Source: Gemmatimonadota bacterium (lineage in GTDB: Bacteria > 4572-55 > J002). Taken from it: a DNA stretch of 9,675 nt. Below are positions 8,976-9,675 of the stretch, one piece after another. Every line of letters starts with the position of its first letter. Positions within the stretch are counted from its first letter, which is position 1. The DNA is taken from positions 1 through 9,675 of the forward strand of contig RFFQ01000176.1 in the NCBI GenBank assembly GCA_003697105.1, read 5' to 3'. Under the pieces are notes generated by a model, which ran no database searches, had not been told where the DNA came from, and was given only the letters and a program-made list of their open reading frames with translations. The position numbers and the translations under genes are program-made.

Positions 8976-9200
8976 ATGGATAACCGGAACATCTTACAAC
9001 ATCTGATCACCTCCTTTCACCCCAGCAGCCTTATCGCTCTCCTGCGCCGGATCGCCCCTGCTTTTCGTCCGGAAGATACATCCTTTAACCGTTTCATCGC
9101 ACCTGCTCAACCCACAGGGGGGTGCACGTCTTCATCTGCTCCAATTCCTGCCGTCTGCCAGCTGGTCTGGGAGCGCATCAGCAAAGCAAGGAGTGTGTAG
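8976..9200 (+). CDS. Short doubtful ORF, possibly a gene remnant
   Basis: This 74-codon frame has no good Shine-Dalgarno. Its first part, ILQHLITSFHPSSLIALLRR with a following FRPEDTSFNRF, looks like the helical start of a real protein. It faintly recalls the N-termini of Eco57I-type DNA methylase/restriction proteins, but that is memory of style, not a match. The last third, from about base 9106, changes to Cys/Ser/Pro-rich residues and looks non-coding. The stop TAG (9198-9200) lies just before the transposase GTG. One reading is a gene truncated when the transposase arrived. Apart from this ORF, I see nothing recognisable in the 8907-9187 stretch. Confidence 0.25.
   Translation: MDNRNILQHLITSFHPSSLIALLRRIAPAFRPEDTSFNRFIAPAQPTGGCTSSSAPIPAVCQLVWERISKARSV
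9188..9193 (+). promoter_or_regulatory. Shine-Dalgarno for the transposase GTG start
   Basis: AAGGAG ends nine bases before GTG 9203 and supports this non-ATG start. The encoded beginning PYDPERHHRRSIRLKGYNY is also where members of the family normally begin. Confidence 0.65.
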
Positions 9201-9202
9201 CC

Positions 9203-9675
9203 GTGCCGTACGACCCGGAAAGACACCACCGGCGCAGCATCCGCCTGAAAGGGTACAATTATGCCCAACCCGGCGCGTATTTTGTGACCATCGTTACCCA
9301 GAACCGGGACTGTCTGTTTGGCGAGGTGGTGGATGGGGAAATGCGATTGAATGCCGCGGGACAAATGGTGCAACGGTGGTGGGACGAATTAAATCGAAAA
9401 TTCCCCAATGTCCGTACCGATGCGTTTGTGGCCATGCCCAACCATATCCACGGTATTATCATCATCCACGCCAATGGGGAAACGGATCGATCTGTAGGGG
9501 CGGACCGACGTGTCCGCCCCGATGGGGGAATGGGCGGACACGCGGTTGATGGGGACGCCAATTGGGACGCACACACCGGTGCGCCTCTACGTATTTGTCC
9601 GGATGGGGACGCCAATCGGGACGCACACACCGGTGCGCCCCTACGTATTTGTCCGGATGGGGACGCCAATTGGGG
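9203..9675 (+). CDS. REP-associated tyrosine transposase (Y1/HUH, IS200-like), 3' partial, with in-frame repeats
   Basis: The frame starts at GTG 9203 and stays open to the window end (157 codons). Residues 1-90 are a typical RAYT N-terminus: HHRRSIRLKGYNYAQPGAYF, then VTIVTQNR and a long helix ending WWDELNRKFPNV. AFVAMPNHIHGIIII follows, with the metal-binding HUH motif as H81-I-H83 (bases 9443-9451). The catalytic tyrosine helix is expected further on, outside the window. From about residue 97 the normal protein is interrupted by low-complexity sequence. This first encodes a palindrome (9497-9520), then 18-residue units beginning DGDANWDAHTGAPLRICP and repeating at least twice. The 54-bp unit is a multiple of three, so the frame survives. 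Family knowledge: RAYTs are single-copy, domesticated-looking relatives of IS200 transposases that bind and cleave REP hairpins. Activity of this copy cannot be judged without the C-terminus. Confidence 0.85.
   Translation, partial: MPYDPERHHRRSIRLKGYNYAQPGAYFVTIVTQNRDCLFGEVVDGEMRLNAAGQMVQRWWDELNRKFPNVRTDAFVAMPNHIHGIIIIHANGETDRSVGADRRVRPDGGMGGHAVDGDANWDAHTGAPLRICPDGDANRDAHTGAPLRICPDGDANW
9497..9520 (+). repeat. REP-like perfect palindrome, copy A (plus orientation)
   Basis: Arms GGGGCGGAC (9497-9505) and GTCCGCCCC (9512-9520) form a perfect 9-bp stem around loop CGACGT. The bases just before are GTA. It lies inside the transposase reading frame. Its geometry (9-bp arms, 6-base loop, TA before the G run) equals that of the two hairpins in the downstream tandem repeat, seen on the other strand. 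Confidence 0.8.
9532..9546 (-). repeat. Half copy of palindrome A in reverse orientation
   Basis: GGGCGGACACG followed by CGGT matches the reverse complement of hairpin A across its left arm and loop, with one T missing. The second arm is absent. It looks like a truncated or recombined copy between hairpin A and the 54-bp units. Confidence 0.45.
9564..9587 (-). repeat. REP-like palindrome, copy B1 (minus orientation)
   Basis: Arms GGGACGCAC (9564-9572) and GTGCGCCTC (9579-9587) flank loop ACACCG. On the minus strand the mismatch at the fourth pair becomes a G-T wobble, so the hairpin folds better as minus-strand DNA. The loop read on the minus strand is CGGTGT, close to CGACGT of copy A. Confidence 0.7.
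9618..9641 (-). repeat. REP-like palindrome, copy B2 (minus orientation)
   Basis: Arms GGGACGCAC (9618-9626) and GTGCGCCCC (9633-9641) flank loop ACACCG. Compared with B1, the C at 9640 restores a Watson-Crick pair in the stem, leaving only the one G-T wobble on the minus strand. Confidence 0.72.

Follow-up and report, generated by a model that had tools for sequence, protein, structure and literature searches.

The gene that runs off the end of the window (the whole stretch of DNA analyzed here, 9675 bases long) is quite likely an intact RAYT of TnpA-REP subclass 2.4, with a linker built of REPs in which inverted REPs have been amplified as 54-bp units, and with a helix, alphaC, that would read the cognate REP built into the gene. 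For the subclass at large, we would give about even chances to a broader proposal: that the built-in REP and the alphaC that follows it form one specificity cassette, in which alphaC reads the REP apex, and that the gene carries its own substrate and can seed new hosts with REPs. What points in this direction is the type of the REP apex, which among the genes compared here tracks alphaC rather than the other parts of the protein, a relationship that appears to be new.

The window is the entire contig C56 of a 4.18-Mb assembly in 199 contigs, and it stops inside a 54-bp repeat, at which the assembly broke off. The RAYT frame has no stop codon from 9203 to the contig end, and its features are collected in the table below. 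The forward palindrome (GTAGGGGCGGACCGACGTGTCCGCCC, 9494-9519 of the plus strand) has a stem of 9 bp if the final G of GTAG is included (position 9497, paired with 9520). The hallmark of a REP, a 5′ GTAG foot beside a hairpin, is found at the forward REP and at both inverted ones, and all three share a loop class. Tandem units 1 and 2 are 96% identical (TRF score 240, 0% indels). The fold of the repeat region beats 200 of 200 dinucleotide shuffles (z = -3.05); an Rfam search gave no match, and a tRNA search found none. The original prediction had placed hairpins and 54-bp repeats inside a RAYT frame, after the HUH motif, and its coordinates and repeat length proved right. The reading of the frame also bears out that 54 bp make 18 codons without a stop, and the naming of the gene as a RAYT is upheld, as is that of the hairpins as REP-like (5′ GTAG).

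Features of the RAYT gene in the window (positions in the window)
Feature	Position	Strand	Remark
N-terminal part of RAYT (TnpA-REP) gene	9203..9675	+	open frame from GTG to contig end; continues in C120, bases 1-295
HUH motif MPNHIHG	9434..9454	+	translation; fits NH[IFV]H of subclass 2.4
Forward REP, GTAG foot and hairpin	9494..9520	+	in-frame reading VGADRRVRP
54-bp tandem unit 1 (18 codons)	9548..9601	+	TRF
Inverted REP in unit 1	9565..9590	-	GTAGAGGCGCACCGGTGTGTGCGTCC
54-bp tandem unit 2	9602..9655	+	TRF
Inverted REP in unit 2	9619..9644	-	GTAGGGGCGCACCGGTGTGTGCGTCC
Third unit, first 19 bases, cut by contig end	9656..9674	+	TRF

The remainder of the gene is found on contig C120, whose first base takes up the 54-bp unit exactly where C56 leaves off. 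More repeat sequence comes there, and the frame then stays open through FKTMTTNEYIRHVKNDGWAPFHKRLWQRNYYEHIIRDDGSLYRIRKYIATNPLRW up to a stop at C120:293-295. The simplest join, in which the two contigs abut, is in frame and without a stop, and this would also be true however many complete 54-bp units were added. On a single contig, L132 is a collinear ortholog of the C56 and C120 halves, with 82-85% nucleotide identity outside C120:309-510 (82.5% to window 9150-9509, 85% to C120:66-281, and 73% to C120:309-510) and with the order conserved. In the linker of L132, a forward and an inverted REP are accompanied by about six copies of an 18-bp repeat, which stands where the window has the 54-bp repeat. 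Collinearity in spite of a different linker repeat supports the join, and it indicates that the repeats turn over while the frame is kept. Since C120 continues the frame to a normal stop and L132 is collinear on one contig, the RAYT copy looks intact, and the joined gene is probably whole. The frame rejoins the catalytic-tyrosine region, as had been left to be checked by extension, and runs past WQ and YIATNP to the stop; C120 has neither the stop codon nor the frameshift just downstream that would mark a dead copy. L132 was sampled from Chloroflexota, the phylum to which the SAR202 genome G101 belongs, which would make its phylum different from that of the window's genome. The nearest relatives of the window's genome in the comparison share a class with it at most (one genome), and otherwise the domain only.

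Some sequence around the gene deserves mention. C120:309-510, downstream of the RAYT, is common to L132. Upstream, the 35 bp at window 9039-9073 match the beginning of a large C145 ORF (94%), and window 9099-9150 matches L132:361-411, which lies about 1 kb further upstream there. These upstream matches suggest a gene remnant.

RAYTs are domesticated transposases. As set out in passages of Quentin et al. (2018; PMC6006769), subclass 2.4, which matches RAYT group 4, has the motifs NH[IFV]H, WQ, and YIxNNP and a linker whose length and sequence vary greatly, and its unique feature is that REPs are inserted into the gene itself, as a rule between HuH and Y, with the frame undisrupted. Judged by its motifs, the window gene is a RAYT of this subclass and a further case of the published phenomenon. 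NHIH at 9440-9451 is the HuH motif, WQ is present in C120 ahead of the catalytic tyrosine (LWQRNYYEHIIR), and the Y motif, YIATNP, is one residue off the consensus in Table 1 of that paper. As in the subclass, a variable insertion of in-frame REPs lies between beta3 and alphaC. A transposase of the IS200/IS605 type (subclass 1.1) was considered and rejected: Y[IV]ENQ is expected there, and YIATNP is of the TnpA-REP type. The NCBIfam model NF047646 (REP_Tyr_transpos) gives 25.2 bits (E 1.2e-5) to the window half, 38.3 bits (E 1.1e-9) to the C120 half, and 52.7-63.3 bits to the relatives, all below its curated 80-bit cut-off, and the subclass is therefore outside the strict range of the model.

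The likeness to subclass 2.4, as described in those passages, extends to the scattering across phyla, and what the window adds is the 54-bp tandem expansion and a genome in which its REP class was found only inside the gene. The original prediction had treated in-gene REPs as a departure from the intergenic norm. The departure is real, but it is not exceptional, being a published hallmark of the subclass in the same source. Intragenic REPs and Rickettsia palindromic elements inserted in coding sequences have also been described (Di Nocera et al., 2013; PMC3733652). Those elements occur in varied, unrelated genes, whereas here a presumed REP transposase gene is involved, at one conserved site.

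For the protein fold, a model of the close relative L033 stands in for the two-contig protein of the window (pTM 0.71). It has a low-confidence linker (about residues 88-121), presumably disordered, between the HUH strand (beta3) and a confident helix (residues 125-148), which is alphaC. The fold is of the HuH/Y1 kind related to TnpA-REP, and the best solved match is PDB 4ER8 (E 6.3e-7), a RAYT bound to a REP hairpin. In that E. coli TnpA-REP, which belongs to subclass 2.2, K82 of helix alpha3 contacts the mismatched REP base (Corneloup et al., 2021; PMC8266576). AlphaC would be the counterpart of alpha3, judging by its location between HUH and Y. For E. coli TnpA-REP and the REPtrons tested in that study, alpha3 contacts an irregular base of the REP, and RAYT and REP are said to co-evolve; for group 3 RAYTs, a role of alpha3 in loop reading is given as speculation (PMC8266576). 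The window gene shares GTAG-tagged hairpins with E. coli TnpA-REP and with these REPtrons. The REPtrons, however, are of groups 2 and 3, and their palindromes are described as bordering the coding sequence, not as lying inside it.

The relatives number about 135 in all. They were drawn with the subclass profile and share ancestry, and hence are not independent. A first set consisted of 72 genes from other genomes in which a single open frame holds both HUH and Y, and a second, held-out set of 61 further genes was examined after the rule described below had been written down. Of 80 named loci, 26 escaped the first regex; those in which both motifs were later found have no frameshift or stop, and the remaining ones have divergent motifs. 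Viral contigs, as an independent sample, yielded 2 relatives only.

The architecture of REPs in the linker recurs across many phyla. A GT[AG]G hairpin is present in the linker of 58 of the 72 relatives, in both orientations in 41, and was not detected in 14. Hairpin density in the linkers is 7.2/kb. The core halves have 0.29 and 0.13/kb, shuffled linkers about 0.26/kb, and the 300-bp flanks of the gene 3.1 and 2.2/kb. The N-terminal core has 5 hairpins, and a longer N-terminal stretch that includes upstream sequence has 28. Across the 72 relatives GTAG never falls in the frame that yields a TAG codon, as an open frame requires. Tandem periods are divisible by 3 in all 16 linker arrays (10 genes) and in 11 of 32 flanking arrays, the core being without arrays, and the same holds for 10 of 11 linker arrays in the second set, a result partly forced by the open frames required of the sample. 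With the same proviso on open frames, frame-keeping arrays across relatives agree with the earlier suggestion that the repeats expand without breaking the protein. Pairing in the stem is conserved: 22 in-gene REPs of the window's class have 24 double-change cells, compared with 4.8 from shuffles, and sliding the stem partner destroys the covariation. Extreme in-frame arrays are found in the linkers of L148 and L182 (12 bp x 10.9 and 18 bp x 7.6, with AVAPNN repeats), and close to its C-terminus, beyond the usual linker, L012 carries another half REP in frame (AIRELPLQ).

We now turn to the pairing of REP apex and helix. Because a core-only tree for mapping the REP classes had too few columns and was mostly unresolved, similarity-matrix tests were used. 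The similarity of in-gene REPs follows that of the alphaC segment with a rank correlation of 0.53 (the highest of 500 permutations was 0.16), compared with 0.16 for the N core and 0.06 for the C core. REPs outside the gene at the same locus also follow alphaC (0.285, with 0 of 400 permutations as high) and do not follow the cores. The loop classes used in what follows were assigned by simple patterns of our own choosing, and unclassified REPs of the first set are left aside in the ratios. In genes with the long alphaC-beta4 form the apices of in-gene REPs are asymmetric, with GT or a similar ending, and in genes with the short form they are palindromic (asymmetric to palindromic, 47:0 and 0:25, respectively). 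Outside the gene the ratios are 29:8 and 2:16. The held-out genes behave alike: 7:0 and 0:27 inside the gene, and 6:1 and 0:20 outside.

Among long-form genes, the loop varies with the residue that precedes FK: C-NRY-GT accompanies W in 15 cases (one other), C-TY-GT accompanies A in 9, and C-CCY-GT accompanies R in 7 (one other). In the held-out set this rule holds for W in 2 of 2, for R in 1 of 1, and for A in 4, with 2 more unclassified but of closely similar loop. As part of the cassette reading, these pairs would form a code, in which the short KRIN-type helices would go with perfect palindromes. Genome-wide, C-NRY-GT REPs are present in 15 of 16 W-type genomes (1 to 96 copies, the built-in ones counted). 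They also turn up in 1 of 10 genomes of the A type, in 1 of 7 of the R type, and in 4 of 12 of the short type. The genomes that have them without a sampled W-type helix are G111, G115, G116, G118, and G823, along with a single copy in G044, and they may hold further RAYTs. The two copies L011 and L032 of genome G010 are instructive: the Tyr region is the same at 33 of 34 residues and the HUH half at 50 of 70, but alphaC at only 15 of 30, and the REP class differs along with alphaC. It looks as if linker and alphaC had been exchanged as one cassette. A connection of alphaC with the REP apex was not found in main-text passages of Quentin et al. (2018), whose supplements have drawings of intragenic REPs, and the pairing may be partly known already to those authors.

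The mechanism we favor has REPs entering or arising in a disordered loop that would tolerate any in-frame insert. Slippage or unequal exchange would then expand them, and purifying selection would remove all lengths but multiples of three. The REP apex would be read by alphaC, equated here with alpha3 of E. coli TnpA-REP, and the gene and its cognate REP would travel together in horizontal transfer to new hosts. Passive tolerance could instead account for the linker REPs, if REPs fall by chance into a disordered loop and are harmless there, without any special relation to the protein. The low confidence of the linker in the L033 model and the many unrelated lengths of the linker arrays agree with such an account; passages of Quentin et al. 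(2018) suggest little impact on activity; and a linker REP is evidently not required, since 14 of 72 relatives are without a detected one. However, the class of the linker REP tracks alphaC and not the remaining protein, REPs outside the gene obey the same rule, and linker REPs are denser than those of the flanking DNA. We hold tolerance alone to be possible but doubtful. The tracking itself could reflect physical linkage or shared descent without recognition, the linker REP and alphaC being exchanged as one DNA stretch. L011 and L032, differing in both together with a nearly unchanged Tyr region, are what one would expect from this, but REPs outside the gene and dispersed genome-wide track alphaC too, although more weakly, which makes linkage alone an unlikely explanation.

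A RAYT that binds hairpins in its own gene or mRNA, and thereby limits its own expression, is very improbable. The hairpins are conserved by covariation and lie within the coding-strand region of their own gene, but covariation needs no regulation because REPs proliferate as palindromes anyway, and relatives without a detected linker REP are at odds with such a role. No direct evidence was found for it, nor for the self-targeting or self-regulating insertion that the original prediction had entertained. That the copy is dead, with the gene split or degenerate and C120 an unrelated remnant, is very unlikely. C56 does end here, the C56-C120 join comes from assembled contigs and not from reads, and the genome also holds a truncated RAYT on C50. 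On the other side, C120 continues both the repeat and the frame into a complete Tyr domain, and the single-contig ortholog is collinear with both contigs. An intact gene with a REP-built linker is the reading we keep.

The pairing bears on how RAYTs spread REPs and on their specificity. Each subclass 2.4 gene seems to display its own target beside the helix that would read it, and the pairing is therefore readable from sequence across many phyla; RAYT-REP recognition would become a table of testable predictions. If true, enzyme and substrate would be inseparable in horizontal transfer, and this would explain how a RAYT arrives in a new host with its REP.

In the window's own genome the class of these REPs (C-NRY-GT) is found, as assembled, only inside the RAYT gene. 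A scan of C56 and C120 outside the gene with the GTAGGGGC hairpin pattern found none, and the many dispersed extragenic copies expected of REP elements were not found in this assembly. The 54-bp unit was considered as a dispersed genomic repeat family and rejected, BLAST having located it only at C56 and C120. Besides the hairpins of the RAYT, a single properly stemmed GTAGGGGC hairpin was found in the genome, a double-foot palindromic-class REP that immediately precedes a gene for HsdR, of type I restriction (L008, C115:54-80, with the REP at 57-80). In the large majority of subclass 2.4, canonical REPs occur within about 1 kb around the gene, which passages of Quentin et al. (2018) describe as usual and not obligatory. 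Extragenic copies could be missing from the assembly, since REP arrays can break short-read assemblies. As no copy of the class was found outside the gene, RAYT activity in this genome is only putative. We do not take the absence as refuting the RAYT-REP link, because the in-gene hairpins fit the REP type of the RAYT's helix class. As far as the assembled sequence goes, the genome carries the element, which has hardly spread there. The expectation that the hairpin would recur elsewhere in the genome was thus disappointed here, but same-type relatives have up to 96 REP copies per genome. G209 and G099 have only two copies of the C-NRY-GT class, likewise at the RAYT gene.

RAYT genes can also stand head to tail, two or three within 1-2 kb (G378/G724, C2:2300405-2302065; G414, C1:11148-12377). 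The window's genome (G000) has a second RAYT, L123 (C50:3914-4060, minus strand), of which only the N half is present, with a stop soon after. Its linker contains a 21-bp palindromic tandem repeat, and L123 is a remnant with this same architecture.
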